IMG/VR virus record: IMGVR_UViG_3300010885_012813 | Coordinates: 1-36,905 of that record | DNA length: 36,905 bases | Origin: a virus | Strand: one strand, 5' to 3' | In this document: positions 1,714 through 33,374 of the stretch, piece by piece | How the letters are laid out: each line of letters begins with the position of its first letter | Numbering within the stretch: the first letter of the stretch is position 1 | Translations under genes and position numbers: made by a program | Notes under the pieces: model-generated | The model's input: the letters and a program-made list of their open reading frames with translations, nothing else | Told to the model about the DNA's origin: nothing | Database searches by the model: none

Positions 1714-2535
1714 TTATAATACTCCTGCCGAAGATACTATTATATCATTTATACTTGAAACTTTAACAGAGTCTTTTTTAAGCATTGGGAAATATCCTAT
1801 CCAATTATCTTCTGCATCCTTATAATATCTAACAATAACATATCTAAATTTATAATTGCTATCTCCTAATCTAGTTTTTATATTTGCTCTTTTTTTACTA
1901 AGATTTGGATATGCTGGAACGGTTGTTGTAAAAAGTGTACCACCATTAGAAATGTCTGCATCAACATATTTTAGAATCTTATCTTCAGCTTCGTATAAAA
2001 AGAAAACAACATCTTTTAATGTTTCTGTCCATTCAAGATCATTTTTAACACCTGGTGGAATAGTTATAGTTGCATTATAGTAGGCATCGAATCTTGTGGT
2101 TTCAGTTAAAGAAATTGTTCCAGTATCTGCTACTTTATTAAAGTTTGCTCCTTTTTTAACTACCTTTACTACTTTTGCATTTGGTACACTTGTTATTACA
2201 TAAGATCCATTTAAACTAGAAATACCCATTCCACTAAGAGATATTTTATCTTTTACTTTTAATCCATGGCTAGTAGTTGTCCAAAGAGTTACTATGTCAT
2301 TTGTTCTTTGTCTATGAGAAACTGTATCTGTATATGTTGTTTTTATAACCTTTTCTTTTACTAGTTCTTTTCTTACACTTGGAGCATAAGAAGCTAAAGA
2401 AATAAGTCTAGGAGCCTTTGGTGTTTGAATATTAATAGATCTACTAGATGAACCTTTTTTACTGTCAAATGGATTGGAATACTTTAAAGTGATTGTACGT
2501 TTTCCTGGTTTTAGGTTTGGTATTGTAATATCCAT
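1714..2535 (-). CDS. Minor tail protein with an inserted beta module
   Basis: This 273-residue protein starts at an ATG that overlaps the stop of the preceding gene (TAATG at 2535), so translation is probably coupled. Residues 1-45 form a short beta-rich start (ITIPNLKPGKRTITLKY) that looks like a fibronectin or Ig-type strand pattern. Residues about 76-144 match the repeated module seen in other virion genes here (TSHGLKVKDKISLSGM, then LNGSYVITSVP). The remainder (residues 150-273) is a beta-rich domain with many aromatic residues (YKFRYVIVRYYKDAEDNWIGYFP), suggesting an Ig-like fold. It sits among tail-tip genes. I do not recognise a named family; a baseplate or fibre-attachment role is inference. 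Confidence 0.7.
   Translation of the reverse strand: MDITIPNLKPGKRTITLKYSNPFDSKKGSSSRSINIQTPKAPRLISLASYAPSVRKELVKEKVIKTTYTDTVSHRQRTNDIVTLWTTTSHGLKVKDKISLSGMGISSLNGSYVITSVPNAKVVKVVKKGANFNKVADTGTISLTETTRFDAYYNATITIPPGVKNDLEWTETLKDVVFFLYEAEDKILKYVDADISNGGTLFTTTVPAYPNLSKKRANIKTRLGDSNYKFRYVIVRYYKDAEDNWIGYFPMLKKDSVKVSSINDIIVSSAGVL
2104..2310 (-). repeat. Repeated beta module, copy in 273-aa tail protein
   Basis: Residues 76-144 of the surrounding protein follow the pattern T-x(1-3)-H-G-L...D-x-I-x-L-S-G-M...L-N-G-x-Y-x-I-x-S-V-P that recurs at 482-719, 949-1177, 17686-17883 and 19997-20221. This copy has diverged most in its last strands, where valine and lysine replace the TPTTFT segment. Confidence 0.6.
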
Positions 2536-3473
2536 TATTGATTAAATCCTAAAACTAAATAGTATTCAATTGTAATAGGTTCTCCTGCTGACTTTTGAAT
2601 AGGAGTCCCAAGGGCTGTTCTAGAAACTAATCCATAGTTTACATCTATGTTATCTGTGTCATCAAACTTAATTCCATCTAATACTAAACCAGTAGTTGTC
2701 ATTGTAATTGATATCTTGTTTATGTTTTCCCAGGCAGGGGTGCCTGTTGCTAAAATTTCATCTTTTGTACAACTTAATATTTGATATCCTCCAGATGATA
2801 TAGTAAAAGTTTTTGAATAATAATTTGAATCATCTGTTTCAAATTTAATAAGTAGGGATCCGCTTGTTCCAGTTGGGTCAACTGCTAATTTAAGTAAATC
2901 CTTATCGCTAAATTCTGTAAAGTTTTTATAAAATATAGTGCTAAAAACTGTTGAGCCAGGATCGATGTAAACTGCTTCGTTTCCAATTCTATAAGTTCCA
3001 TTAGCAATATCTGCAGAAATCATTCTTGATCCACTTACTTTTGATGATAGTTCTGTGCTTCCCTCCGTCCAGCCATCATCGCTTTCTCCATTAAATAAAA
3101 GTAAGTCTGAAAACTGAACAATCTGATCTTGAATAGATTCTGGATAAAGACCTACCTCGTAAATTGTATATTTTAATGGATCATTAATTGTTGTTTTAAA
3201 AACCAGTGCGTCTACATTGTCTGTTCTATCTAATGTTGAAACTTGTACGGGTGACTGACCTATTGAAAATCCCATATTGTTTAAATCAATTAATTTATCT
3301 GAATTTAATGCTGGATTAGATTGACCATCAACTCCAATAACAATAGATCCTCCCACTGAAGGAATAAGACCTAGTAAACTTTTAATAATAAGAGATCTTC
3401 CAACTATTGTTAGAGAGTTGTTTTGTTCACATACAAGAGTGTCTCCCTTATAAATTCTATAAAAACCTCTCAT
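2535..3473 (-). CDS. Tail tip / baseplate structural protein, family not recognised
   Basis: The gene codes 312 residues from an ATG at 3473, 6 bases after the stop of the upstream gene; an AAGGTGG sequence lies about 14 bases before the ATG, which is a long spacing. The N-terminus (RIYKGDTLVCEQNNSLTIVG) followed by GGSIVIGVDGQSNP and a segment reading YEVGLYPE is typical of phage structural proteins that form a trimeric or ring-shaped base, but I cannot name the family. The middle (about residues 130-250) looks like a jelly-roll carbohydrate-binding domain (SRMISADIANGTYRIGN and YYSKTFTISSGGYQILS). It ends with GEPITIEYYLVLGFNQ. The 3' end overlaps the next start by one base. Role in the tail tip is inferred from position. 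Confidence 0.7.
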   Translation of the reverse strand: MRGFYRIYKGDTLVCEQNNSLTIVGRSLIIKSLLGLIPSVGGSIVIGVDGQSNPALNSDKLIDLNNMGFSIGQSPVQVSTLDRTDNVDALVFKTTINDPLKYTIYEVGLYPESIQDQIVQFSDLLLFNGESDDGWTEGSTELSSKVSGSRMISADIANGTYRIGNEAVYIDPGSTVFSTIFYKNFTEFSDKDLLKLAVDPTGTSGSLLIKFETDDSNYYSKTFTISSGGYQILSCTKDEILATGTPAWENINKISITMTTTGLVLDGIKFDDTDNIDVNYGLVSRTALGTPIQKSAGEPITIEYYLVLGFNQ

Positions 3474-3479
3474 AATATA

Positions 3480-4013
3480 CTATTTTACCACCTTAATTTT
3501 AATTTCTGTTTCACCTAGTGTAAAGCTAATAGATATTCTCATGTCATAAAATGGATTATTGTTTTGATCATATTTTATAATTCCTGGATAAAATGTTCCA
3601 GAATCTGGATCTATTTTTCCAAAAGACCTTGACGACAGACCATTTTTTGCTTTTGAAGATAATGTCTTTCTTTCTATAAGACCTGCAATTTTACTTATTT
3701 TTTCAAGATACTTAGCACTAACCCTATCAGCTTGTGGATTTGGTGCTTTAGGTGACTGCGGAATTGTTCTATCATTAAGCCTTGTTATATCATCATTTGC
3801 TGGAATAATTGATTCTGGAATGGATTTTACAGTACTAGCAGTAAAAGTATTCAACATTTGTTCTCCAGTTTTTATAAGAGACATTTGAAATTGATTAATT
3901 ACTTCTTTATATTTTTCATCAACATTAGGATCATTAAATACTTTACTTGACCCTGCAGGAGTTATAGTTTTTGCTGAAGCCTTAGCTCTTGATGTAAAGT
4001 ACTTAGATGGCAT
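3480..4013 (-). CDS. Tail-tip-associated protein of unknown function
   Basis: I take the ATG at 4013, which overlaps the stop of the upstream gene as TAATG and has GGGAG 8 bases upstream. A GTG at 4022 is also in frame but lies directly against that GGGAG and is less likely. This gives 177 residues. The N-terminal half is basic and alpha-helical (MPSKYFTSRAKASAKTITP, then VDEKYKEVINQFQMSLIKTG). A proline-rich linker follows (TIPQSPKAPNPQ). The last 50 residues are beta-rich (TFYPGIIKYDQNNNPFYDM, then SISFTLGETEIKIKVV). No known motif is recognised. Its place between the large tail-tip protein and the next structural gene suggests a virion or assembly role. Confidence 0.7.
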   Translation of the reverse strand: MPSKYFTSRAKASAKTITPAGSSKVFNDPNVDEKYKEVINQFQMSLIKTGEQMLNTFTASTVKSIPESIIPANDDITRLNDRTIPQSPKAPNPQADRVSAKYLEKISKIAGLIERKTLSSKAKNGLSSRSFGKIDPDSGTFYPGIIKYDQNNNPFYDMRISISFTLGETEIKIKVVK

Positions 4014-7000
4014 TATGGACACTCCCTAAGAATCACAGAAGTTGTTGGACCTGATTCGCTTACTTCTCTATTAATTTCAGCAACAACATATGTTTTATTT
4101 CCAATATCTTTTGCTGAGTAACCTGCGTCTGAGTAAAATACCCCTACCTTATCTCCTAGTTCTAGGAGCGGATTACAGAAAGCTGAAATACTTAATTCTT
4201 TTCTTTCTTGAGATGCATTTTTAACTATCCACTGCATCATTGCTTTTGCCTGTCTTTCAGTTGCAATATACTCAGATGCAACACTTACTGAAACATCTCC
4301 ATACATTTGTTTATTTTGATATAGCTGATTTTGAAAAATATCATATTCATTATTATCTTCAAGATCTTCAATATATTGCTTTAGGCTTATTTCTCCATCT
4401 GCAACGTAATCCAACTTAATACCGCTAATAAATAATGGGGTCAAAGAATCCTCTCCAATGGTTATAGTGGAATTAGATGTATTGTATACCCAAAACTTTG
4501 CACCAAAGGCATTTGAATTGTAGTTCTTAACAAGATAGTCTGAGTTTACAGATGAAAAATCTATCATTGAGGAAGTAAATGTTGGAGAATCAAACTTAAC
4601 ATCAAACTTTTTAATTTCCCTAACCATGGTAGCAAAGTCTTCAAAGTAAACTTTTTTATTGTTTTGTGATCCTAAAGCAGCCATTCTTATTGCATTACCT
4701 ACAGTTTTTTGCTTATATCCTAATGAATCTTCAAAAGATGATTCAATTTTGTTTTTTGCATTAGAATAAGCATATGCATGATCATAAATTGCTTGACTAT
4801 CATCTCTAACAAATATTCCAATCCTATTTGTCTTTGGTAGCTTTGTTGCTTTTTTGTCAATAGCTGTAAATAGTTTTTCTCCCTGCCAGTACACAGTAAA
4901 TTGTAAATTTCCTCCTACTTCTTTGCAAGATAAATCTAACTCAAAGATTGAAGCAGTAACACCGTCTGTTATAGATTTTGAATTATTAGAAACACTTCCA
5001 ATAAAACTTGTTGTGCTTATATTGGCTTTTGCCACACCCAAAACAAAGCACTCTGTTGTGGTTGAGGTGGTTGTCATTCTATAAAGTCTAACGTTTCCGT
5101 TTTTAGGTGGGACTGGATTACCTGGCACAACTGGTTCATCTTGACCATCTTTTGATGGAGCAACTTCAAGAAAGTACCCACTCATATATTTACCATCACT
5201 AGTAGAACTTCCAGAGTCCGTTAGGTGCATTGCTATTCCTGCAATATGAGATGAGGTATCCTTTTTTGCATCACCATCAGTCATTACAAGTCTCATTCTA
5301 GTTCCCATCATTTCTGGTATGGCTTCTAGTTTATTTGAATATCCGTGAATAAATCTTTGACCATAATCATCTATTTTTAGACTAGGCACTGCTACTCCTG
5401 GCGTTCCACTTGATTTTTTTAAACTTGATGGTCCAGAAAGTCTGGCATACCCTGACTGATTTCCATTAATACTATAAGATAAAGAAGCTTTTGTGTTTTG
5501 TAACTTACTAAAACCTGCATCACCAATTACTGTTGACATTGGCTCCCAGTCATCATTAAAGTCTGATGAGGATCTTGCTATATGATTTTGAGCACTAGTT
5601 CCATTTTGAGCTCTACCATCACTTGTTATTGTGTACTTAAAATTATTATCTAAAAGAGTTGGCTTTCCAGAAATCTTAAAGTTCATATAAACAATAAGTG
5701 CCGTAGGTAATATCTTTGATCCACTAGGAACAGTTCCTCTAAGAGACTCAAGTTCATCTTGATTAAAAATAAATCTAGAATATGATTTTTCTGGCTCTGT
5801 AACTTTAACTAAAAATCCATTGTACTTAATGACTTCATTATTAATATAGACATACCCTTCATATTTGTTAGATTGTAGGAATAGGTATGCTGAGTCATTA
5901 TCTATATTAATTAATAAATCATTGTCTGTATATCCAATATTTTGATAAGCAGAATCAAAAGATTTTCTTATTGCTTCTTCTTCATTTATAGCAGGAATTG
6001 TTTTTCCAGCCAGTACGTTTTTTGGTCTACCGTTGTTTGACATACTTTTTTCTAGAATTGCTGAAATTAAAACTGACTGAGAACTATCTGATTGAGTTGC
6101 TTCCCATAACAATCCTGGTACATAAGAAAGTTCTGTCAATACCGTAGTTGGGCTAGTAGATGCTTTATCAATAAGTTGCTTTCTTTTTTCATTATCTAGT
6201 TCTTCTGCAAGTGCCGTTGGCTCCTTTTTAATATTAATAATTTTATACTGCACGACACCATCGGTAACTGGTGGAATTGAAGTTTCATTAATTGACTCAA
6301 TGTTAGAAAATTTACCATTAACATAAGAATATTCATCATCACCAAGTATTGAATTATTTCCAATAAACCAGTAGTTTTTACCTTGTATTTCTGCAGAATT
6401 TCTATCAAATGCTGTTCTAGAAGATATTCTATCTTTTGTCATAACCACAAAATTATTATCTGCATCCATAAACATTGATAGTTGGGAAGAGGTAGCAATA
6501 TCATTTAATGCTTCTGCTACAGTAACATCATTTGAGCAATAAAAGAAATTCATTTCTGGATCAATACCATCTTTTGTTTCAAAATAAAATTTATTGTATC
6601 CAATATTATCTAATAGCATTCTAATTGCTAAAGATGACTTTAATGGATTCTTATATCCAATTAGTAAATTAGGTGCCTGAGTTTCTCTAAAAAACTTAAT
6701 ATAATCCTCTAAATTAACAGATGTAGTAAACTCTGAACCTTGAGACCATTGTGTAGAATACATAGTTTTAATTGGAATAGCATACTCACTTATACCAACA
6801 ACAATTATTTGATAAAATGAAAATTTAACATTTGCTCTTAGCATTGTTTCTAACTCATAATTTTTTGGATCAGAATCTTTTACATATGTAAAAATAGAGT
6901 TTGGATTCATTTTATCAAATATTCTAGTTTCATTAGATAAAGATACGTTACCGCTGGAACTTACAATTGATCCTAGTGGCAATCCATATTGGCTATCACC

Positions 7001-16576: not shown

Positions 16577-17227
16577 TTAACCGAAAACTCTATCAATGAT
16601 TTTTCCGTATGGTGCGCCAGTAGCGGTCGATGGTAGAAGTCTGAATGATACAGGGAAAACTGTAGCTTCATTTCTTCTAACGCCAACTGATACTGTGTCC
16701 ATGGAAAGAGCACGATAACCTAAGTAAACTCTTTCTACTTTCTTGGTATTACTTAGATTCTTTGATTCTGGACCTGGACCAACAATTGCGATTGAGCGTT
16801 CTATTGGAGTAATTCCAAGAGCACCTCCATCAATTGTTAAGCTTTGAATAGCTGCTGATGAAGCTCCAGTAAGATCTGATGCATCTGCTCCAAGAACAAG
16901 TAGCATGTTTTCAAGTGTTGCTTCTGTTAAAGTTGTGTTAAGCATTACTCTCTGACCTTGCTTAAAAATCTTAGCAACGTCAAGAAGTTGATCAACCTGC
17001 ACTTCACCGAAATCTGGTTCAAAAGAAAGTTCTGAGCCTTCTGATGTGAAACCAACGTTTCTCCATTTTGAGGAGTTAACGTTTACATCGTCTTGTAGAG
17101 TTACTGTTGAAGCAGCTAAAGTTCCTGATGATGGTAAATCATCTTCGTTATATTGTGTGTTTACTACAGCTCCTACATAAAGAGCACCAGCACCAACAAT
17201 AATATTTTTTGCATTACCTATTGCCAT
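16577..17227 (-). CDS. Major tail protein
   Basis: I take the ATG at 17227 (MAIGNAKNIIVGAGALYVG), giving 216 residues. AGGAGGTG, an 8-base match to the 16S rRNA 3' end, lies 11 bases upstream; the in-frame ATG at 17251 lacks such a site. Text such as NVGFTSEGSELSFEPDFGEV, then VDQLLDVAKIFKQGQRVML and TLTEATLENMLLVLG is typical of HK97-like tube proteins of actinophages. The gene lies between the tail terminator-like gene and the chaperones. The tube subunit is made in large amounts, which fits the strong ribosome binding site and the hairpin that isolates its transcript. A 5-bp palindrome (17229-17241) lies between the ribosome binding site and the start. Confidence 0.92.
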   Translation of the reverse strand: MAIGNAKNIIVGAGALYVGAVVNTQYNEDDLPSSGTLAASTVTLQDDVNVNSSKWRNVGFTSEGSELSFEPDFGEVQVDQLLDVAKIFKQGQRVMLNTTLTEATLENMLLVLGADASDLTGASSAAIQSLTIDGGALGITPIERSIAIVGPGPESKNLSNTKKVERVYLGYRALSMDTVSVGVRRNEATVFPVSFRLLPSTATGAPYGKIIDRVFG

Positions 17228-17313
17228 AGTGTATTTTACACCTCCTGTCATGTATATATTTATACGACTTGCTGTGGTCTTGCTTCCTCAACTTAATAGT
17301 ATCATAACTACAC

Positions 17314-20858: not shown

Positions 20859-21917
20859 TTAAGCATCACGAAGTGCGTATGCAATCGCTGACTTTTCTTC
20901 TAGTGCTACACCCATACGGACGTATACTGTGTACTCTACTGTGTCCTTCTTTGGCTTGAATTCACGATGTACGGTTACATCACGCTGGAAGCCCCAGATT
21001 CTGTTGCTAGGTAGAGTTAGATCGACATAATAGTCTGGATACAAAGGTACTTCTACAACTGGTAATCCGAAGATTAGGTATTGTGAACCTGACGGTCCAC
21101 CAATCTGTGGAATTACACCATCGATTACACGGGTAGCAACCTGATCAGGAACTGTTCCGATGTTTCTCAACTCGGAAAGCAATTCTGATAGATGCTTGCT
21201 ATTCATGTAGAACTTAAGGTCCTGACGGCGAGCCTTGAACTTACGAGGCAATGCATTGTAGATTGCTTCGATAGCGTCCAAGCCAAGTGTCGTTGTTGCA
21301 CCATCGCTTGCTTCAGGAGAAGACTCCCAAATGTTAGCCATTGTTGCAGATGCAGCAGCAGCAACGTGTGTTCCCGAAATACTTGCATTAAGTGTCTGAC
21401 TGACAAATCCTGTAAGAGTATTAAGGTATGTACCATTTGCTAGGCTTGAAGTACCTCCTGAATTACCATTGATAGCAATGTCCTCAAGATCGTTTCCGAA
21501 CTGAGTTGCCATCAAGCGAACGATGTGATCCTCAAGCTGCTCACCTTCAATGTTATCCTCTAGGGATTCTGTTGAAAGTTCGTAGTCTAGACGGAACTTT
21601 GTTGTTGTAAGTTCGATTTTTGTAAACGCTGGAGCTGCATTGCTTCCTGTTTGCTCTGCCTGTGTTGCCTTAGCAACAAGACGTGTGCCAACACGAACCT
21701 TATCAAGTTCCATTGTATTTGCTCTCATTACAACTCTACGACCATCATTGGCGAGAACCATCTCGTCAAAAATATAGTCGATAAACTGACTTGACTGCTC
21801 TGGGTTTAATACACCACCAGCATCATTAGAATTACCCTGTGCTGTCATTGCACCTGGGGATTGTAATGGAGATAGCACTGTACCACTTGCTGCAGCCTTT
21901 TCGATAATATCACTCAT
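20859..21917 (-). CDS. Major capsid protein, HK97 fold
   Basis: The product is 352 residues from an ATG at 21917 with AGGAAGGTG 11 bases upstream. It has the order of HK97-type capsids: an N-terminal arm with low complexity (SPLQSPGAMTAQGNSNDAGG), then EQSSQFIDYIFDEM, an E-loop region (VRVGTRLVAKATQAEQTG), a spine helix area (EGEQLEDHIVRLMATQFGND), and a C-terminal A-domain with GSQYLIFGLPVVEVPLYPDY and a final RMGVALEEKSAIAYAL. It follows the protease-scaffold gene. The DNA is visibly less AT-rich here than in the fibre genes, with more C- and G-ending codons, as expected for a highly expressed gene. It is closed by a strong terminator. Confidence 0.95.
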   Translation of the reverse strand: MSDIIEKAAASGTVLSPLQSPGAMTAQGNSNDAGGVLNPEQSSQFIDYIFDEMVLANDGRRVVMRANTMELDKVRVGTRLVAKATQAEQTGSNAAPAFTKIELTTTKFRLDYELSTESLEDNIEGEQLEDHIVRLMATQFGNDLEDIAINGNSGGTSSLANGTYLNTLTGFVSQTLNASISGTHVAAAASATMANIWESSPEASDGATTTLGLDAIEAIYNALPRKFKARRQDLKFYMNSKHLSELLSELRNIGTVPDQVATRVIDGVIPQIGGPSGSQYLIFGLPVVEVPLYPDYYVDLTLPSNRIWGFQRDVTVHREFKPKKDTVEYTVYVRMGVALEEKSAIAYALRDA

Positions 21918-21945: not shown

Positions 21946-22527
21946 TTAATTTAGATACTCTGCGGAGCCGAGGAAGCGTCCACCCCACGTTGATTTTTTC
22001 ATCGTGGTAGCCTTCTCTGGAGAATTTTCCAATTCGCCAGACTTCTTTACTGCTGTATCCTCTTCTACAGCTTCCATTCTTCCGTTGATAGAAGAGATTG
22101 CATTTGTGATATCTGCTAGTGCTTTATTTAGATCATCGTTTTTTGATTCAATTGTTGAGATTTTATCAGTCAAAGCCTTTGTAACTTCTGCTACTGTATT
22201 TGTTACAGCAATCATTGTTTCATTATTCTTTGCTACGGATCCTTCTAGAGTACTTGAAACAAAATCTTTAATTTCGTTCAAAGCCTTTTCAATATCAGTT
22301 GCCTCACCATCTTCGGTGGAAGGTTCTTCAGTTACTTCTTCTGTAACTTCTTCGGCTGCATTTGCAACCTCTGCATCTTCAGAAACTTCGTCAGACTTAG
22401 ATAGTTCTTCTGTTGCTGCTTCTTCAGATACTTCTGTACCTTCTGAAACTTCTACATCTTCAACTACTTCATCAACGGTTACTTCTTCTACAGTTTCTAC
22501 TTTTGTGTCTTCTGTGTTTTCAGCCAC
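21946..22527 (-). CDS. Possible nested in-frame scaffold protein
   Basis: An in-frame GTG at 22527 (Val396 of the long protein) is preceded by AAAGGAGGTG, a ten-base match to the anti-Shine-Dalgarno, with seven bases between GGAGG and GTG. The product would be 193 residues: VAENTEDTKVETVEEVTVDE onward, then the coiled-coil region, that is, just the scaffold part without protease, zinc cluster or Tudor domain. In phage lambda the scaffold Nu3 is made from an in-frame start inside protease gene C, so the arrangement has precedent. The site falls exactly at the domain border. Use of the start is inference; the site itself is read directly. Confidence 0.55.
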   Translation of the reverse strand: MAENTEDTKVETVEEVTVDEVVEDVEVSEGTEVSEEAATEELSKSDEVSEDAEVANAAEEVTEEVTEEPSTEDGEATDIEKALNEIKDFVSSTLEGSVAKNNETMIAVTNTVAEVTKALTDKISTIESKNDDLNKALADITNAISSINGRMEAVEEDTAVKKSGELENSPEKATTMKKSTWGGRFLGSAEYLN

Positions 22528-23712
22528 TTCAACACCTCCTTTGATAATTTGGTTGGCAACTGACTGTGTTTCAATTGCCTTTTTTACTACCTCATTTGGC
22601 AGTAAGCCTATGTTTGTTCCAAGTGATTTAAGAACTTTTGTGGTCCAAGACCTTAGTGTTTTCATTTTATGCCCTACTTTTGTATCTGTTGGCTTCCATG
22701 AATTTCCTTCTTTTCTATAAACTGTAATAACTACTGCAGGGTCTTCTGGGGTACCAGTTACACTTACAGAAGAGTTAGGTACATTAATTTTACCATTATT
22801 TACTACTCTTGTTACTTTTCCACGAGCAGTTCCACCTGAAGAGTTCCACTGTACAAAATCTCCAACAGAGAATGAACCTTTATACATTTCTTTTTCTTTA
22901 CCCTTTTTATTCTTAAGCTCTGACTTATACTTTTTATTTTGATCTGGGTACTTGTTTGAAGTCTCTTCATTTGTTACAACGTTTCGTGCTTTTGTAATCA
23001 TTTCAAATACAGACTTAGCTACATTTTCTTGTGTAACTTCATCAATCCAACCGATTGATTTTAGATCATCCCCACAGTTTGCACATGAATGTGCTTCATT
23101 TTCATCTGTGTATGCAAGTTCGTCTGTCTCACACCAAAAAACGTTTTGAATATTTGACTTGTTAAAAATACCATCTGCAATTGATCCACCTTGTAGATCT
23201 TTTTGAATAGAAAAAATGTTTGCAAGTTGATTTGCAGGAGAATCAACAAGAGAAAGCTCTACTAGATCATAGTCTTTAATAATTCTAACAGTAGATTGTG
23301 ATTCTGAATCCATTACTGGCTCTGAGTCTTTTACATTACCGCCAATTGAAAATCCAGTTAGAGTTCCATCTAGGACCATTTCCCAAATATCAGTTGCACC
23401 CTTTGAGATATAAGCATCAACATAAACGCCATTATATTGCTTGTTTGTATTTGCATCAAAAAAAGATTCTGTTCTAAAGTTTACAACTTTACCTGCTGGA
23501 ATTGGCTGATGCATTAAACGCACATTTCCTCTAAAGTTTTCAAATGCTCTTTGGGATGCCTCTGCAGTTACTCTATCTCCTTGACGGTCAATATTGTCAA
23601 GTGTTGCAAAACCAGATACAATTCTTTTTTCTACATCTACCTTTGAGATAGGCATGGTCAAAGTTACCTGATGACCATTAGTAGTAAGAGATGCTTTTTG
23701 TAAATCTACCAT
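21946..23712 (-). CDS. Prohead protease fused to Tudor-like domain and scaffold
   Basis: The gene codes 588 residues. Residues 1-170 are an HK97/XkdF-type maturation protease: H68 (RLMHQP), S122 (GFSIGG) and E152 (VELSLVD) fit the His-Ser-Glu triad of that family. Next comes a small likely zinc cluster (C194, H208, C210, C213). Residues about 279-352 (FSVGDFVQWNSSGGTARGKV, then PEDPAVVITVYRK) look like the Hva1/DUF2945 Tudor-type barrel. From about 396 the protein is very acidic and then coiled coil (residues about 470-560), as in scaffolds. A strong ribosome binding site inside the gene may give a separate scaffold. The start has no Shine-Dalgarno; TATAAT lies nine bases upstream, so a very short leader is possible. 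Confidence 0.88.
   Translation of the reverse strand: MVDLQKASLTTNGHQVTLTMPISKVDVEKRIVSGFATLDNIDRQGDRVTAEASQRAFENFRGNVRLMHQPIPAGKVVNFRTESFFDANTNKQYNGVYVDAYISKGATDIWEMVLDGTLTGFSIGGNVKDSEPVMDSESQSTVRIIKDYDLVELSLVDSPANQLANIFSIQKDLQGGSIADGIFNKSNIQNVFWCETDELAYTDENEAHSCANCGDDLKSIGWIDEVTQENVAKSVFEMITKARNVVTNEETSNKYPDQNKKYKSELKNKKGKEKEMYKGSFSVGDFVQWNSSGGTARGKVTRVVNNGKINVPNSSVSVTGTPEDPAVVITVYRKEGNSWKPTDTKVGHKMKTLRSWTTKVLKSLGTNIGLLPNEVVKKAIETQSVANQIIKGGVEVAENTEDTKVETVEEVTVDEVVEDVEVSEGTEVSEEAATEELSKSDEVSEDAEVANAAEEVTEEVTEEPSTEDGEATDIEKALNEIKDFVSSTLEGSVAKNNETMIAVTNTVAEVTKALTDKISTIESKNDDLNKALADITNAISSINGRMEAVEEDTAVKKSGELENSPEKATTMKKSTWGGRFLGSAEYLN
22533..22542 (-). promoter_or_regulatory. Internal ribosome binding site AAAGGAGGTG
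   Basis: This is the longest Shine-Dalgarno match I noticed in the window and lies within a coding frame (codons for KGGV). It sits at optimal distance from the in-frame GTG at 22527. Confidence 0.6.
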
Positions 23713-23749
23713 AACATTTTAATTATATAACACATTTGTTATTATAGTG

Positions 23750-25321
23750 TTAGGCTTGTTGTCTACCTTCACCTTGAGGCACTCTAGATCCTGTTCCACT
23801 GTCAGCAGCGTTAGCATCTCTTTGTTGATCTCTTAGTCTATTTCCATTAGCCTGAGTTCTTTGTTCAGCCTGACCTTGTGCTGTTAGTTGAACTGGTTCA
23901 TCTCCAGATGGTAGTGCTGTCATGCCTTTTCTTGATCTAACTTCATTAGGCAAGTAGACTCCCATTCTTAGATAACGCTCATCAATCTTTGATTGAGTAT
24001 CTTCATCTGTAAGTGTAAGTTCATTGAACTTAAGCTTAAACATATCTGTTTTTTCTGAAACAATTCTGTTTATAGACTTTTCTAAAGTATCTTGTTCTGG
24101 ACGACATACTTGATCTTTAAAGGTTCTATCTGCTTCACGAGCATTAGCAAGAGAAATATTTTCTGCTGTCCCAACCTTTGAAATTGGTACTCTATGAGCC
24201 ATTAAGATTTCACTTAGATTAGTTTTTCTATAATTGTTAAAAGAAGAATCCTGAATTCCATTTTCAACTGGCTCCATCTTAACATCAATCTTTTGACCAT
24301 TTTCATCACCAGGAATTGGAATTACTAGTGTTCTGTGTGATTGACCACGAAGATTATTTTGGAAGAATTCAAATAACTTAGATTCAGCATCTTTTGAAAG
24401 CTTTGCTCCCTTGATCCAGAAGATATATCTTGGAGTTGCTTTATTTTCAAAGTATTCAAGGTTAAATCTAGAAGCAAACTCTGTACCTGCCATTGCATTT
24501 TTTGCTGCAACAATTGGAGGAATTCCATAGTAAGTATTAGTTGGGGTATAAGACTTTAAGTGAATAATTTCGTTTGGACGAGTATCTACACCAATTGGAT
24601 TTTGCTGAGAATTATCTTGAAAGTTTCTAAAGAATACTGATTTTCCATTTACAATTTGAACAAATCCATCACGAAGTCTACGAATTCTAACAGTAGCTGC
24701 TGGAATATGACCAATGTAACCAATTTCTCCTGTTACCTTTCTTCCAATTTCTAAGTATCCGTTTCCAGTAGCTTCTTTATCAATATAAGCCTTTATTAAA
24801 GTTGCAGTAAAAGTATCTTCATCGTTTCTTGATTCTAGCCATTCTTCAATCTCAAGCTTTGTTCTATCAAGCTTACGTCTTTTTCTAGAAAGTTGATCTG
24901 GATCTGTTGTTTCTTCAAGCATTTGTAATACTTGAAGTGTTGGTTCAAGATTATAACCTAAGCCAACAATGTTAGCTACCTTTGCATTAATTGCAGAAAA
25001 GTTTGCAGAAGAAACTTCATAAATCTTAGCAAGAGAAATTAAATTGTATGGTGGCTCAACAACGTCAAAAAGACCATATCCATATTTATCTGGGACCAGT
25101 TGCTTAGAATCTGAATCTTGACCACTTAAAGAGTTTTGATCTGCTTTCTCAAGTTTTCTTTTAGCATTTCTTTTAAAATTATGTCCTAATCCAGAAAGCT
25201 TTACCAGTTCATCTGCACTCTTTGCAAAATCATCTATATCTCCGTTTCCAACCAAAGAGTTAGACTTTTCAATATTGTCCATTCCAATATCTCTACCACT
25301 AATCTCATACATTTCTTGCAT
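23750..25321 (-). CDS. Portal protein
   Basis: I take the ATG at 25321 (MQEMYEISGRDIGMDN), which has AGAGG nine bases upstream, giving 523 residues; a GTG at 25354 would add 11 residues without a better site. It overlaps the previous gene by 17 bases. Portal features: LFDVVEPPYNLISLAKIYEV, then a helical EEWLESRNDEDTFTATLIKA and DKEATGNGYLEIGRKVTGEI, the PTNTYYGIPPIVAAKNAMAG segment, NYFENKATPRYIF-like text, ANSLANAREADRTFKDQV-like helices and LPNEVRSRKGMTALPSGDEP near the C-terminus. This is the SPP1/PBSX portal pattern. The dodecameric portal is the DNA gate. The C-terminal 40 residues are Gln/Arg-rich and probably disordered. Confidence 0.94.
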   Translation of the reverse strand: MQEMYEISGRDIGMDNIEKSNSLVGNGDIDDFAKSADELVKLSGLGHNFKRNAKRKLEKADQNSLSGQDSDSKQLVPDKYGYGLFDVVEPPYNLISLAKIYEVSSANFSAINAKVANIVGLGYNLEPTLQVLQMLEETTDPDQLSRKRRKLDRTKLEIEEWLESRNDEDTFTATLIKAYIDKEATGNGYLEIGRKVTGEIGYIGHIPAATVRIRRLRDGFVQIVNGKSVFFRNFQDNSQQNPIGVDTRPNEIIHLKSYTPTNTYYGIPPIVAAKNAMAGTEFASRFNLEYFENKATPRYIFWIKGAKLSKDAESKLFEFFQNNLRGQSHRTLVIPIPGDENGQKIDVKMEPVENGIQDSSFNNYRKTNLSEILMAHRVPISKVGTAENISLANAREADRTFKDQVCRPEQDTLEKSINRIVSEKTDMFKLKFNELTLTDEDTQSKIDERYLRMGVYLPNEVRSRKGMTALPSGDEPVQLTAQGQAEQRTQANGNRLRDQQRDANAADSGTGSRVPQGEGRQQA

Positions 25322-25640
25322 TTTGGAATACCTCTCTCCAGTTATCTGTATCACCGTAAGGTGTTAATCCTTCAGCCATTCTATCAATATCTTCTCTGGA
25401 TTGTGTTTCAGATGATCTACCAACTCCTGGCATAAATACTGCTTTGCCTTCTGGCTTTCCCCAGTATGCTGCAGCATCTGCTAACTGTTTCATCTTTGTA
25501 ATATCATATTTTCGAGCAGGAACATTTAAAGTATTACCCTGATCATCTTGAAAGGTAGTCCCATTTGGTAACTCCCATACATAAATTCCATATTCTGCAC
25601 GACTTTGTACAGCTTGTACTTTGTTTTTAGGTTTTGACAT
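25305..25640 (-). CDS. Small conserved protein preceding portal
   Basis: The gene codes 111 residues with ATG at 25640. There is no ribosome binding site: an extended -10 (TGG-TATCAT) lies exactly six bases before the ATG, so the mRNA is probably leaderless. The text EYGIYVWELPNGTTFQDDQG, then KQLADAAAYWGKPEGKAVFM resembles a family of unknown function that precedes portals in actinobacteriophages. It ends with NWREVFQNARNV and overlaps the portal start. It heads the portal-protease-capsid operon. No enzymatic motif is seen; a DNA packaging or portal-partner role would be guesswork. Confidence 0.75.
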   Translation of the reverse strand: MSKPKNKVQAVQSRAEYGIYVWELPNGTTFQDDQGNTLNVPARKYDITKMKQLADAAAYWGKPEGKAVFMPGVGRSSETQSREDIDRMAEGLTPYGDTDNWREVFQNARNV

Positions 25641-25689: not shown

Positions 25690-28600
25690 TTATTCTGAAT
25701 CAGTCAAATCTGATTCTTTGTATGAAACTATTTTACTTAAAACACTAACCTGACTGTAAGTTCCATCTGATTGTTTTTGTAAAAATTCTTTTTCATTTTG
25801 ATCACCGTTTTGAACATATATTAAATCCCCTGTTAATATGTCTGCTGCCTCTAGTGAAGTATCGGGTGTAAATGTAGCAACTCCATTAGAGAATCCAACT
25901 GAGTACACCCCTCTATTTGCTGATGAAGTTTGATTTGCTAATAATACCGTAACTGGAGAAGCAAGGGTAGGAGCACTAATGCTATCAATTTCAATAAGAT
26001 CTATATCATTAGAATAATTTATTTGATTAGAAGAAAGAGTATAATTTTCTGTTGCTGCCAAAGATACTGTGGATTTAATTGAATTTTGACCTGGAATAAG
26101 TTCGTATTCTAAATTATCATTCCTAACCTCTTTGTCATAAAAATTAACATTAAGAAAAATAAATGAAAGATTAATTCCTGTTTGATTAGATAAAACATTT
26201 TTATTTATAGTAATAGTGTTTCCTACAATATTTGTTACGTTTGTTCCAGTTTCAATTCCTGTTCCAAGCACTCTCATTCCTAAAGCAATTCCAGTAGAAC
26301 TTGCAACTGTAATTGTAGTTGGAGAACCTGTAGTAAAAGTTCCAGTTGTAAATATTGAGTCTTTTACTGGCTCTGAGTAAGATGAGTAGAATAGATTGTA
26401 ATACTTTAAAGCTTCAGTTGCTGTCAGTTTAGGTCCAAGAAAACATAGGTTATCAATATAAAAAGTTCCTGTTGTTGATGAGGAGTTTCCTATTTCAATT
26501 GCAGTTCCATTTACGGTATCTATAGTTATTGGATTATCTAAAGCAATAATATAATGATTCCATTCATTAGTTTCTGCACTTGTTGTTGCTGTTCCATTTA
26601 CATAAATATTTCCAGTAACTGCAGTACCTGCAATTGCTACCGTTCCAGATGTTTGTCTAATTATAACTGGATCAGAATAGATAAATCTACACTGAGATGA
26701 AGTTGTAGGTTTTGCAGTAAACATAATTGTGCTAATGCCATCACTTGTCTCTGTTCCAATGCCTTTTGATAAATAATTTATAGTTCCGTACTGGTCCCCA
26801 ATTTTTAGACCAGTTGCATTTCCATAGTACATAGAAGGAGTTTTATTTACTTCTGGTAAATATAAATCTTGTCCAGATTTTGCTGTGATGGTTATGTTTT
26901 GATCACCAATATCTGACCTCATCTCAACAGATGAATTTATTGAATTAAATACATTAAGATTAAGATATTGTAAAACTGGAGGAGATACTTCATAGTCATC
27001 TGACTTTAGTGTTATATCAAATCTAATAACATGATCTGTTATTGCTTGACCTAATAATCCTTTTATCGGATCACCACTTAAAATTTCCTGGGTTGCTATA
27101 AGTTCTGATGTTTGATTATATACAGTAGCTTCTAGCGTAACAAAACTATCTCCTGTAACTTCTCCATAACCTAAATCTATTCTATGTGGTAAAACATTTG
27201 TAGTTCCAAAAAAGTTGGTACCAAGATAGAACTTAGCTTTTCCCTTTGTGTATCTAATCAATCTTTTTTCATTACTTGGAGTTATTTTGTAGTTATAGTC
27301 ATAGTTTTCAAATGCACTAAAGTTGGCTGGAATAGATGATGAATCTTTTAAAGCACCAATTAAATTAAGTTTTCCAGTAAACCTATTAGTTACTATTTCG
27401 TTTGACGGAATAATTTCAGTATTGGCAAATGGGCTAATAGTTTCTGCTCCAAAGGATATGGATGAAGAAATTAGTGGTAGCTCTAATTCTGTATTAGTTG
27501 ATATATACTGATTCGAAGAAGTCTGTAAAAATAAACCTAAAACATTATCTAATTCATAAAAACCTAAATATAAATTTCCAGTTATCTGTGTGTTACTTGA
27601 TAAGATAGTTGTATCAGGTTTTGTAGTTCCATCTATGTAATCTGTTGAATAATAAATTTTATATTCTGATCCTACCTTTTCAGCATAAACAGATAAACCT
27701 GCATCTGTTGATGAATCTATTTTAAATAATAATTGTTTTGTTGTCCAAGTAACTCCAGTAAAGTCAAATTTAGATATCATTCCATTTGGAAAAGAACTAA
27801 CCTTATCTGAAACATATAAAGATGTTCCATGAGGAAAAGATATTTCTCCATTATTTGCTCCATACATAGTTTCATAGCTAACATCTGAAAAAGTAACATG
27901 TTCTATTGTTGAATAGTTATTTGTTGTTAAATATCCATCTCTTTGAACCTCTAGGCTACCATCTTCAATAAGTAAATTATTAAGCCAGGAGGATTCGGTG
28001 TTATATGATAAAGAGTAAAGTTTAGATGTATTTTCCATATGCATAGAATACATTGTTCCAGCTTTTGATGATATTGAAAATTTAGAAATATCATAACCTA
28101 CACCATAAATAAAATGTCTTTTAGATATTGTAGGAGTAAATTCATAGTTATAGATTGCAACACTATCTACATAAATTCCTATAGACGAGCTTCCAAAAAA
28201 ATCAAAATACTCATCAGAGGAATTATATACTTTTGTAAAATACTCTAAATCTACTATTGGAGCTGAAGACTCAACACCATTTACAAATAAGCTAATTCCT
28301 TTTGGATTATAGCTAATTGCAACGTGAAGTGGCTTGTTAAAATTATCAATTGGTAAAGAGGTCGATACAGTATTCTGATCACCTAGCTTAAATATTAAAT
28401 AGTTATCTTTAACATAAAGACCTGTAGAGCTATTTGGTTTTTTTACAATTGTTATTTCACTTGTTGTAGAATTTGTTATCTTAAGCCAGAACTCTAGTGT
28501 TGAAGTATATTGTCTGTTTGCAGAAGACATTTTATCTAAAGAAGGAATCCTAAGGCAGGCTACGTTGTTTTCTATTAACTTTATACATTGACCACCACCG

Positions 28601-28773
28601 TAAACAAGGGGTACTTTGATTCTTTTTACATTTGCTCCACTAGCACCTAAATAGGTTCCATTGTAGGAGTTTCCTAATAAAAATTTATCATTTTGTACAG
28701 AGGTTCCACTAGTTTCATTTAAGCTCCATACGGAGACTGGTGAATCTTCTAAAATTAAATCAGTATAAGACAT
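25690..28773 (-). CDS. Large LamG-type structural protein
   Basis: The gene codes 1027 residues with an AGAGGT site 4 bases before the ATG at 28773. Residues about 80-240 are a LamG/concanavalin-type sandwich (YTSTLEFWLKITNSTTSEI, then LHVAISYNPKGISLFVNGVE and SIGIYVDSVAIYNYEFTPT). A second similar sandwich lies at about residues 640-770 (FTAKPTTSSQCRFIYS and NEWNHYIIALDNP). A segment FTTGSPTTITVASSTGIALG, with TGIETGTNVTNIVGNTITIN, is a module often repeated in phage fibres. The C-terminus has VTVLLANQTSSANRGVYSVG, a common fibre element. It lies between nrdJ and the head operon, away from the tail tip. A virion surface or glycan-binding role is likely; the exact location is unknown. Confidence 0.8.
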   Translation of the reverse strand: MSYTDLILEDSPVSVWSLNETSGTSVQNDKFLLGNSYNGTYLGASGANVKRIKVPLVYGGGQCIKLIENNVACLRIPSLDKMSSANRQYTSTLEFWLKITNSTTSEITIVKKPNSSTGLYVKDNYLIFKLGDQNTVSTSLPIDNFNKPLHVAISYNPKGISLFVNGVESSAPIVDLEYFTKVYNSSDEYFDFFGSSSIGIYVDSVAIYNYEFTPTISKRHFIYGVGYDISKFSISSKAGTMYSMHMENTSKLYSLSYNTESSWLNNLLIEDGSLEVQRDGYLTTNNYSTIEHVTFSDVSYETMYGANNGEISFPHGTSLYVSDKVSSFPNGMISKFDFTGVTWTTKQLLFKIDSSTDAGLSVYAEKVGSEYKIYYSTDYIDGTTKPDTTILSSNTQITGNLYLGFYELDNVLGLFLQTSSNQYISTNTELELPLISSSISFGAETISPFANTEIIPSNEIVTNRFTGKLNLIGALKDSSSIPANFSAFENYDYNYKITPSNEKRLIRYTKGKAKFYLGTNFFGTTNVLPHRIDLGYGEVTGDSFVTLEATVYNQTSELIATQEILSGDPIKGLLGQAITDHVIRFDITLKSDDYEVSPPVLQYLNLNVFNSINSSVEMRSDIGDQNITITAKSGQDLYLPEVNKTPSMYYGNATGLKIGDQYGTINYLSKGIGTETSDGISTIMFTAKPTTSSQCRFIYSDPVIIRQTSGTVAIAGTAVTGNIYVNGTATTSAETNEWNHYIIALDNPITIDTVNGTAIEIGNSSSTTGTFYIDNLCFLGPKLTATEALKYYNLFYSSYSEPVKDSIFTTGTFTTGSPTTITVASSTGIALGMRVLGTGIETGTNVTNIVGNTITINKNVLSNQTGINLSFIFLNVNFYDKEVRNDNLEYELIPGQNSIKSTVSLAATENYTLSSNQINYSNDIDLIEIDSISAPTLASPVTVLLANQTSSANRGVYSVGFSNGVATFTPDTSLEAADILTGDLIYVQNGDQNEKEFLQKQSDGTYSQVSVLSKIVSYKESDLTDSE

Positions 28774-28789
28774 AGTTACCTCTTATACA

Positions 28790-30733
28790 TTATACCGCTT
28801 TAACAGTACCAAAATCACTTATTTCACAAGATCCAGCAACACAAGCCAAATCTTGAACACTTGTTGTTGCATCAAATGTTTCATAAATTTCTAACCATTT
28901 CCAGTCAAGGTCTGTAGGAGTTTCTGATAAAAGAATTTCATATTCTCCCTTTGTAATTTCTTGATAAGGAGCCTGTTGATAAGTATGCTCTGAGTAAGGC
29001 AAGAAAGATACACCTGACATTTCATCAATATGTTGATATACCCAAGCACCAACTGCCATCCATTCATTTTCTTTTACAGATACTGTGATAGAAGGCTTAT
29101 GTTCTGCCCAATGACGTTGATATGTAAGCCAGATATCTAAATGTTGTACTGCAGTCAAATGTTCACGAAGCTTTGCACCTTCAGGAGCAGCGATAGGAAA
29201 AGTAAACACCATAGTATCATTTGGCTTCATTACATCTGGCTCATGCTTTATACCCATATCAACTAAGAAAGATGTAATTGGATCTTTCATGTCTCCACGA
29301 ATTGTACGAGCGTAATATTGCGAGTGCCATGGGTGCATTCCTGAAGAAGCATTTACTAGCTGAGAAACTGTTCCAGATGGCTTTACGCATGTAATAGCTG
29401 CTGCTTGATTAATGCCAATTTTCTCTGACCATTCTTTATTTACAACAACAGAGAATTCTCTTAACTCATCTAGCCATGCTGATAAAAGGTCAACGCCTTT
29501 AGATCCATTAAGAACTGGGTGAGATAGTTGACCTGTAAGAGAAAGACCTAGTAATCTTTCTTCTTCAGAATTCTTTTGCCAAATCTTACGAAGATATTTA
29601 AATCTAGTAAATGTAGATTGAATAGTTCCAAGAATTGCAGCGAGTTCTACTTTTGCCTTAAGATCCTCAAGGGTATCTGTATCACGAACAATAACTTCTG
29701 TAAGGTTACAAAACTGATTTGGTCTTAAGATAATCTCTGAACATGGATTAGTTCCAAATTCTGCTGTGTGATCTCTACGACCATTTTTTGACGCAACTCT
29801 TTGTGCAGCCTCACGACTAAAAATTCCACGCTCTCCAGACTTTGAATCATACAAAGCTTTCCACTCATCCATAAATACTTCCATGGTTGGGCGAGTATTA
29901 TATACTGCTGAGTTGTTGGCTAGTGCTCTTTGACCGCTATATTCCCACCAGGAACCAGACTTAGCTGCTGCCATGTTTCGGTCTTCCAAGTCTGATAACG
30001 AGATCATCGCTGAACGGCGAACACCGCCAACAACAACAACTTCTGCAATCTTGCACATTAAGTCGTGTGCTTCAAGTGGAGTTAATTTCCTACCTGCTGC
30101 ACCCTTAATGAGAGAAACAGAAAACTTAAATAAACGATCTAGTGGTTCTGGACCTGATGCACGACCACCAAATGTTTTTAGACGAGCACCTGCAGGACGA
30201 ACCTGAGACATATCCCAAGATGGTACTTGACCTTGCCACAAAAGTGCAAGTAGTTCTTTTAATGAACGTGCCCAACCAGCCTTGGAATCTTCTACAACAA
30301 TTGTTGTATCTGTATTTTCAAAATGCTCAGAAATCTCTGGTAGTTGATTTACATAACGGGATTCAACAGAATATCCAACTCCAGTTCCACACATTAGGAT
30401 GTACATACCCTCATCAAATGATCTTAAACTATCAACTGGCATATAAGCACAGTTATAGATACATGTGCTATCTCTATCAAGGGCAGGTCCTGCTGTCATA
30501 AGACCACGCATAGATGGCATAACCTTTGTTTCTAAAATAGCATTACGAAGTTTTGATTTAACATCTTGTGATAGCTCAAAGTTATTATGCTTTTTAATTG
30601 CATCTGTTACATAGTCCATATAACGATCAACTGTTTCATCCCAGTTTTCTCTACGACTATCTTCTTCTCTCCATCTTGCATATCTTGTCTTATGGATTAC
30701 TTGCTGGTATGCCGTTGGCAAAGAAACTATCAT
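28790..30733 (-). CDS. nrdJ: Ribonucleoside-triphosphate reductase, class II
   Basis: This 647-residue protein converts ribonucleotides to deoxynucleotides using adenosylcobalamin. I take the ATG (GGAG 11 bases upstream), not the GTG 12 bases earlier that touches GGAG. It matches monomeric RTPR (Lactobacillus leichmannii type) in key residues: N329-P-C331-S-E333 with thiyl-radical Cys, Asn and Glu; C342 eleven residues later as the second redox cysteine; C91 or C95 (TCIYNC) for the partner cysteine; the KPSGT phosphate loop (451-455); and the C-terminal C631-x4-C636 pair for re-reduction. It is shorter than the 739-residue bacterial enzyme. A sigma70-like promoter lies upstream. Presence suggests cobalamin availability in the host. 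Confidence 0.96.
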   Translation of the reverse strand: MIVSLPTAYQQVIHKTRYARWREEDSRRENWDETVDRYMDYVTDAIKKHNNFELSQDVKSKLRNAILETKVMPSMRGLMTAGPALDRDSTCIYNCAYMPVDSLRSFDEGMYILMCGTGVGYSVESRYVNQLPEISEHFENTDTTIVVEDSKAGWARSLKELLALLWQGQVPSWDMSQVRPAGARLKTFGGRASGPEPLDRLFKFSVSLIKGAAGRKLTPLEAHDLMCKIAEVVVVGGVRRSAMISLSDLEDRNMAAAKSGSWWEYSGQRALANNSAVYNTRPTMEVFMDEWKALYDSKSGERGIFSREAAQRVASKNGRRDHTAEFGTNPCSEIILRPNQFCNLTEVIVRDTDTLEDLKAKVELAAILGTIQSTFTRFKYLRKIWQKNSEEERLLGLSLTGQLSHPVLNGSKGVDLLSAWLDELREFSVVVNKEWSEKIGINQAAAITCVKPSGTVSQLVNASSGMHPWHSQYYARTIRGDMKDPITSFLVDMGIKHEPDVMKPNDTMVFTFPIAAPEGAKLREHLTAVQHLDIWLTYQRHWAEHKPSITVSVKENEWMAVGAWVYQHIDEMSGVSFLPYSEHTYQQAPYQEITKGEYEILLSETPTDLDWKWLEIYETFDATTSVQDLACVAGSCEISDFGTVKAV

Positions 30734-30785
30734 TTTTAAATTCACTCCGTTTATTTTTTAAATTCCCAAATATGGGGTAAGTACT

Positions 30786-32858: not shown

Positions 32859-33374
32859 TTAGCTTAAATAAGCTGTACCACTTATCGCACTATTCATAAC
32901 AATTATAGCAGTGTTTGCATTTGTATAAGAAACGTGAGTTTCAACAGAATTGTTACCACTATCAAATACTGTAATGTTTGGATAAAAGTTTAAATTATGA
33001 TTAATTGTCCAAATATATGATCCTGCAAATGGACCAGATGTTTGAATAGCTGGAATACTTGCTTGTGTAAAAACAAACCTAACGTGATTTACTGGATTTG
33101 CACTAATATCTGGATAGTCAATAATCACATGACCAATTTTTCCATTTACTGACTGAACTGGAGATACAGTATCACCAAGTGAAACTTCAACTATAATATT
33201 TTCCTGATTGTCATCAATAGCAATATTTGAGATAGGACTTTGGTCTTGAATTGTAACTACATCAACTTCTGGGATTGTATTAACAGCAATAGAGTCAATA
33301 TTTTCAACAGGTTCAACTGTAATACTTGTAATGCTATTTAAAACTTCTACTGTAATTGAATCTGGGGCTGGCAT
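32859..33374 (-). CDS. Fibre-associated protein with VNGKIGHV motif
   Basis: The product is 171 residues starting at ATG 33374. TGG-TATAAT-CAAAAT directly precedes it and there is no Shine-Dalgarno, so a leaderless mRNA is likely; the -10 box includes the stop codon of the upstream glycosyltransferase. The first 80 residues repeat short strands (SITVEVLNSITSITVEPVEN, then IDSIAVNTIPEVDVVTIQDQ). SPVQSVNGKIGHVIIDYPDI is a common fibre-joint motif. The last 65 residues (YIWTINHNLNFYPNITVFDS, then TNANTAIIVMNSAISGTAYL) are a small beta domain seen in fibre tips. It heads the fibre operon. Role inferred from motifs and neighbours. Confidence 0.75.
   Translation of the reverse strand: MPAPDSITVEVLNSITSITVEPVENIDSIAVNTIPEVDVVTIQDQSPISNIAIDDNQENIIVEVSLGDTVSPVQSVNGKIGHVIIDYPDISANPVNHVRFVFTQASIPAIQTSGPFAGSYIWTINHNLNFYPNITVFDSGNNSVETHVSYTNANTAIIVMNSAISGTAYLS

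Follow-up and report, generated by a model that had tools for sequence, protein, structure and literature searches.

A conserved internal start site suggests a scaffold protein nested in the S78-type prohead protease gene of Stanwilliamsviridae and their uncultured relatives

The virus record IMGVR_UViG_3300010885_012813, of which the whole stretch of 36,905 nt was analysed here (hereafter, the window), carries a head-assembly module on its minus strand in the gene order portal, protease/scaffold and major capsid protein (MCP). The central gene of this module (21946-23712, minus strand), with an ATG start at 23712 and a stop ending at 21946, encodes a 588-residue protein that we interpret as a fusion of a prohead (S78-type) protease and a scaffold. 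Residues 3-270 of this protein match the head maturation protease profile phrog_9427 with an E-value of 1.3e-121, and the Pfam family Peptidase_S78 scores above the cut-off, as does S78_2. The PHROG 9427 match spans both the protease and the scaffold parts, and the scaffold part alone is matched with an E-value of 4.1e-18. A Pfam search of the open reading frame (ORF) found no S49/ClpP-type peptidase domain, as a homologue of the S49-type gpC of phage lambda would have. Profile matches identify the next gene upstream as that of the portal protein (23750-25354, minus strand) and the next gene downstream as that of an HK97-fold MCP (20859-21917, minus strand), which has a Shine-Dalgarno (SD) start, AAGGAAGGTG. 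Among the ORFs of the window and their profile matches, no separate scaffold gene is found between the portal and MCP genes. The closest cultured relatives of the window are Streptomyces phages of the Stanwilliamsviridae (~45% identity), along with Rhodococcus phages, and these would point to an actinobacterial host. Just upstream of the portal module lies a gene for a 1027-residue protein with a LamG-like (Laminin_G_3) domain (25690-28773, minus strand), and an annotated LamG protein occupies the matching position in Coruscant; a ribonucleotide reductase gene (28790-30745, minus strand; phrog_367, with a match to a B12-dependent insertion domain) also adjoins the structural genes.

The domain anatomy of the 588-residue protein was delineated with the help of an AlphaFold2 model built on 68 homologues (the window and IMG/VR rows only). 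The protease core (residues 1-170; 23203-23712, minus strand), with invariant His68, Ser122 and Glu152/Asp157, is modelled confidently over about residues 21-160, with a pLDDT of about 90 over residues 21-150. It is followed by a three-cysteine, putatively zinc-binding element of the form C-x15-C-x2-C (residues 190-225; 23038-23145, minus strand), which also has a pLDDT of about 90 and whose Cys194, Cys210 and Cys213 are invariant in 13 diverse homologues. A Hva1_TUDOR domain (Pfam PF11160, E-value 2.8e-08; residues 284-330; 22723-22863, minus strand) is a clade-specific insertion, which is modelled as a folded Tudor domain over residues 286-349 and ends near residue 350. This domain is present in one clade only (13 of 81 representatives, with one gain on the tree), and the Streptomyces and Rhodococcus versions of the protein have the cysteine element and lack the Tudor domain. 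In the Roseobacter phage CRP-811, a fusion of protease and MCP that bears the annotation of a major capsid protein (positions 2081-4531 of its locus) has a Hva1_TUDOR-like domain on its N-terminal side, so that a small domain of this type is joined to a head-maturation module there in a different order.

The C-terminal part of the protein is of a different character. A stretch of acidic composition with a pLDDT mostly below 50 (residues 396-472; 22297-22527, minus strand) lies within a region of disorder that the model extends from residue 358 to 472, and is followed by coiled-coil helices of moderate confidence (residues 473-553, as helices 473-492 and 497-553; 22054-22296, minus strand). The protein ends with a conserved tail (TAxKKSG ... 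WGGRFL; 21949-22053, minus strand), which is disordered in the model after the coil and is proposed to contact the capsid protein; its Thr553, Ala554, Lys557 and Ser558 are invariant and its Trp576, Gly578 and Phe580 nearly invariant among 77 homologues. Acidity, a helical coil and a conserved C-terminal tail are features of scaffolds, and the likeness is one of anatomy. A sequence search of the PDB with the window protein returned nothing meaningful, a PDB search with the family profile returned generic coiled coils only, and no PDB fold matched the AlphaFold model at E <= 0.001.

The original prediction was that a ribosome binding site, TTGAA and an in-frame GTG within this gene open a free scaffold of 193 residues, and these elements are indeed present. 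The minus strand reads AAAGGAGGTG-TTGAA-GTG at 22525-22542, in frame within the 588-codon ORF (context around 22527, ATTATCAAAGGAGGTGTTGAAGTGGCTGAAAAC): the octamer AAAGGAGG at 22542-22535 is followed by TG, TTGAA and the GTG at 22527-22525, which is codon 396 (Val396) and is replaced by ATG or TTG in some relatives. The internal SD (AAGGAGGTG; 22533-22541, minus strand), which is conserved in homologues, has a duplex energy to the anti-SD of -15.5 kcal/mol, the strongest among the tested starts of 27 window ORFs, and no internal in-frame start of these ORFs other than the nested GTG reaches -10 or lower. The octamer occurs once in the window against 1.66 occurrences expected by chance over both strands, and this count by itself is not surprising and proves nothing. 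The nested ORF (21946-22527, minus strand) shares its stop with the long ORF and encodes a proposed free scaffold of 193 residues with a mass of 20.7 kDa and a pI of 4.05, comprising the acidic stretch, the coil and the tail. As predicted, both the Tudor domain and the C-x15-C-x2-C cluster lie upstream of the GTG, and the short form would lack them. The placement of the GTG where the protease/Tudor part gives way to the acidic coiled-coil part holds as regards the border itself; the coil, on the other hand, begins later, at residue 473 of the model, and the GTG falls within the disordered linker.

A first scan of homologues with the whole protein yielded 56 usable loci, all of which have AAGGAGGTGTT..RTG at the border, while the encoded residues vary (Lys or Glu before it and Val or Met at the start). 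To avoid bias, the scan was repeated with the protease domain only, by which most of 133 distinct full-length homologues were fetched; the homologues come mostly from metagenomes and include many that are related to one another. An SD of 6-9 nt with an in-frame start at the border is found in 132 of the 133, the sole exception having the G.U-pairing variant GAAGGGGGTAATACAATG (AAGGGGGT...ATG), and the reading frame is open through the site in every one. As a control, synonymous codons were shuffled within each gene, which keeps the protein and its codon usage. An SD of at least 7 nt with a start is present in 75 of 81 non-redundant representatives as compared to 16% in the shuffle, an SD of 6 nt with a start in 80 of 81 as compared to 20%, and such sites are found within the protease part in none of the 81. 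Thus, the retention of SD and start in 132 of 133 homologues against 16-20% in the shuffle rules out chance. The element is shared by the Streptomyces phages of the Stanwilliamsviridae (with the internal start at codon 267 in Comrade and codon 250 in Coruscant) and by Rhodococcus phage Grayson, and Rhodococcus phage Francesca has a weaker site (AAGGAG, spacing 11). The nested start occurs with or without the Tudor domain, and the confinement of the latter to one clade indicates that the core mechanism does not include it. Eleven loci that matched the Tudor domain only, none of them with an internal SD start of -10 or lower, were not counted as homologues, and the contig L206, whose acidic stretch is frameshifted, was set aside. 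In that contig (L206:3600-3860) the stretch reads as QQK/HQQ repeats and the MCP downstream is interrupted, and it is either a sequencing error or a degraded copy. Four homologues of ~750 residues, in which extra domains are inserted after the cysteine element and ahead of the nested start, still keep the internal SD.

The conservation could in principle belong to the peptide, the K/E-G-G-V border being, for example, a self-cleavage site that frees the scaffold and the SD a by-product of its GGA-GGT codons. Gly-Gly-Val is invariant in the clade of the window and prohead proteases often cut themselves from their own scaffold, which would speak for such a site. The codons, however, are conserved beyond what the peptide demands. 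No pair among 29 non-redundant homologues of the Tudor clade differs in its Gly-Gly-Val codons, as compared to an average codon identity of 0.65 for other conserved residues. In the wider set of 81 representatives, GGA encodes the first Gly under the SD in 37 of 37 cases (background, 31%) and GGT the second in 34 of 37, though Gly codons are variable elsewhere. Moreover, the SD is kept in two registers, as aAA GGA GGT (Glu/Lys-Gly-Gly) in 37 representatives and as AAG GAG G.. in 43, where the AAGGAGG is kept and the peptide is a different one (KEV, KEE, KEG or KED in place of GG, in 43 of 80). On the tree of the protease domain, in which counts are minimum changes, the switch of register is a single event, so that the two registers do not amount to many independent trials; there are at least 5 changes of spacing and no fewer than 12 of the start codon, the latter among ATG, GTG and TTG and with exchange of Val and Met, while the distance from SD to start stays mostly at 7-10 nt. 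The maintenance of the SD in two registers together with at least 12 changes of start codon indicates selection on a nucleotide signal and not on the peptide, and a cleavage peptide, which appears already largely refuted by the register switch, is a very improbable explanation. The synonymous-drift comparison suggested with the original prediction came out in its favor, as relatives keep GGAGG and the start, and no full-length homologue has lost the ribosome binding site while retaining the protein.

A nucleotide signal need not be one for initiation, and an internal SD might instead slow elongating ribosomes at a domain border in aid of folding or stimulate frameshifting. Its location in a linker between folded domains would suit such a role, which nevertheless has no need of a start codon. 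When strong SDs were located without requiring one (n = 77), an in-frame ATG, GTG or TTG was found 4-12 nt downstream in 75, against a start-codon background of 2.9% per codon; 1 of the same 77 sites has an out-of-frame start and 2 have none. These in-frame starts also tell against a cleavage peptide, and the spacing suited to initiation, the repeated exchange among three start codons and the open frame in all 133 full-length homologues leave pausing or frameshifting the least probable of the alternatives weighed here. We thus favor initiation at the nested start, which would give a second product from the same gene.

The strengths of the starts in this module are unevenly distributed. The nested start has a median anti-SD duplex energy of -13.0, as compared to -13.8 for that of the MCP and -2.6 for the own start of the protease, and the nested start is the stronger of the two starts of the protease gene in 80 of 80 representatives. 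In the window, a TATAAT -10 box (23722-23727, minus strand) precedes the protease ATG by 9 nt, an SD is lacking, and the start is predicted to be leaderless or near-leaderless. Among the representatives this box most often begins at -15, and a near-consensus -10 box is found at 92.5% of 80 protease starts, as compared to 11% in shuffles and 0 of 65 MCP starts; conversely, all 65 of the 65 MCP starts have an SD of at least 5 nt, against 6 of the 80 protease starts. Shell et al. reported that mycobacterial genes divide into leaderless and leadered ones according to whether they have a -10 hexamer or an SD, two features that exclude each other, and that leaderless ATG and GTG starts are efficient in these bacteria (PMC4633059). 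The protease start has the leaderless pattern of that study, a -10 box directly upstream of the start codon and no SD, and this suggests translation from a leaderless or near-leaderless mRNA. The Loccivirinae versions have TGATATTAT at -15 to -7 of the protease start, which would put the start of the mRNA at the ATG, and the leader in the window would be 0-3 nt long. Counting the protease, three start codons of the window have TATAAT boxes 5-9 nt before them, the other two being at 33374 (TATAATcaaaat-ATG, minus strand) and 35602 (TATAATtaaat-ATG, minus strand), and all three boxes are candidate leaderless or near-leaderless promoters. A promoter for the short form is unsupported, a near-consensus -10 box being found upstream of the nested start in 8 of 80 representatives.

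The arrangement resembles that of lambda C/Nu3 (PMC8508860, in the part citing Shaw and Murialdo 1980), where the 3' part of the protease gene likewise encodes the scaffold in frame, the locus lies between the portal and capsid genes, and the two products have a common stop (NC_001416: C 4418-5737, nu3 5132-5737). An internal in-frame initiation site, the same stop, an N-terminal prohead protease and portal and MCP flanks are all found in the window. The two differ in that lambda C is an S49 peptidase whereas the window protease belongs to S78, and in that lambda has a strong SD at the start of C (-12.0) and a weak one at the annotated nu3 start (-6.9), while this order is reversed in the window family and, unlike in lambda C, a -10 box stands in place of the SD at the protease start. 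A protease-scaffold fusion with a 3'-coterminal scaffold-only product is also seen in herpesvirus UL26/UL26.5, where an internal transcript of its own gives the short form; the present family differs from it in having no conserved promoter upstream of the nested start. HK97 similarly encodes a prohead protease of the S78 type ahead of an HK97-fold MCP, and its scaffold is the N-terminal (delta) domain of the MCP and not part of the protease gene (PMC10275583). The capsid maturation proteases of the Stanwilliamsviridae (for example, gp27 of Streptomyces phage Comrade) are direct homologues with 45% identity, an internal SD and an in-frame start, and differ in being without the Tudor domain.

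We hypothesize, with a probability of roughly 0.87, that one gene gives rise to two 3'-coterminal head-assembly proteins, a protease-scaffold fusion and a free scaffold, in the manner of lambda C/Nu3. Initiation at the ATG at 23712 would yield the 588-residue protease-(Tudor)-scaffold fusion, and initiation from the internal SD and GTG at 22542-22525 an acidic, coiled-coil scaffold of 193 residues that shares the C-terminal tail. Matching the MCP in the strength of its initiation signal, the free scaffold would be made in bulk and co-assemble with the capsid protein, which the tail would contact. Fewer long forms would enter the procapsid by means of the shared coil and tail, bringing in the protease, which would later digest the scaffold and itself. 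What the comparisons show are the sequence signals, their position and the selection on them across a large family; production of the short protein, its role as scaffold, the ratio of the two products and the leaderless or near-leaderless mRNA of the protease start are what we infer. Its identification as the scaffold draws on anatomy, position and strength of initiation, and the product might instead regulate or inhibit the protease, or serve as an internal protein of the head, being made from the nested start without being the major scaffold. It is in keeping with such a role that the short form has no sequence match to a proven scaffold, the PHROGs search with the nested product alone having returned phrog_9427 and weak coiled-coil noise only. 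Nonetheless, an acidic, coiled-coil product encoded C-terminal to the protease and between portal and MCP, initiated as strongly as the capsid protein and with no other scaffold candidate between these genes, makes a role other than scaffold unlikely, though less so than either of the alternatives to initiation.

The two modes of initiation may also set the ratio of protease to scaffold from one gene, the fusion through a leaderless or near-leaderless start with its conserved promoter box and the free scaffold through the strong internal SD. The short form might then also come from mRNAs that read through from upstream; on these the protease start, for lack of an SD, would be nearly silent, and the choice of transcript would control the dose of protease; we consider the odds of this proposal to be about even. 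The HK97 prohead, with 415 copies of the MCP and about 60 proteases (PMC12749128), illustrates that the protease is needed in fewer copies than the structural proteins.

In the open-access literature we found no report of a nested scaffold in this S78 protease family, and the records of relatives examined in the databases annotate a single protease product. The nested ORF is probably the scaffold gene that was missing in the Stanwilliamsviridae and in a large uncultured group of their relatives, hidden in these records inside the 'capsid maturation protease'. The logic of lambda C/Nu3 is known, but the S78 class, the reversed SD strengths and the lack of an earlier report lead us to regard this as a variant of the lambda-type arrangement, which extends that logic to a different class of protease with comparative evidence of selection on the start site. 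The split of initiation modes, with a -10 box and no SD for the protease and an SD for the scaffold and the capsid protein, was unexpected. Elsewhere in the window, the gene at 16577-17251 (minus strand) has a listed start with a poor SD and, 8 codons downstream, an ATG with a strong SD (-14.2), which is probably the true start.
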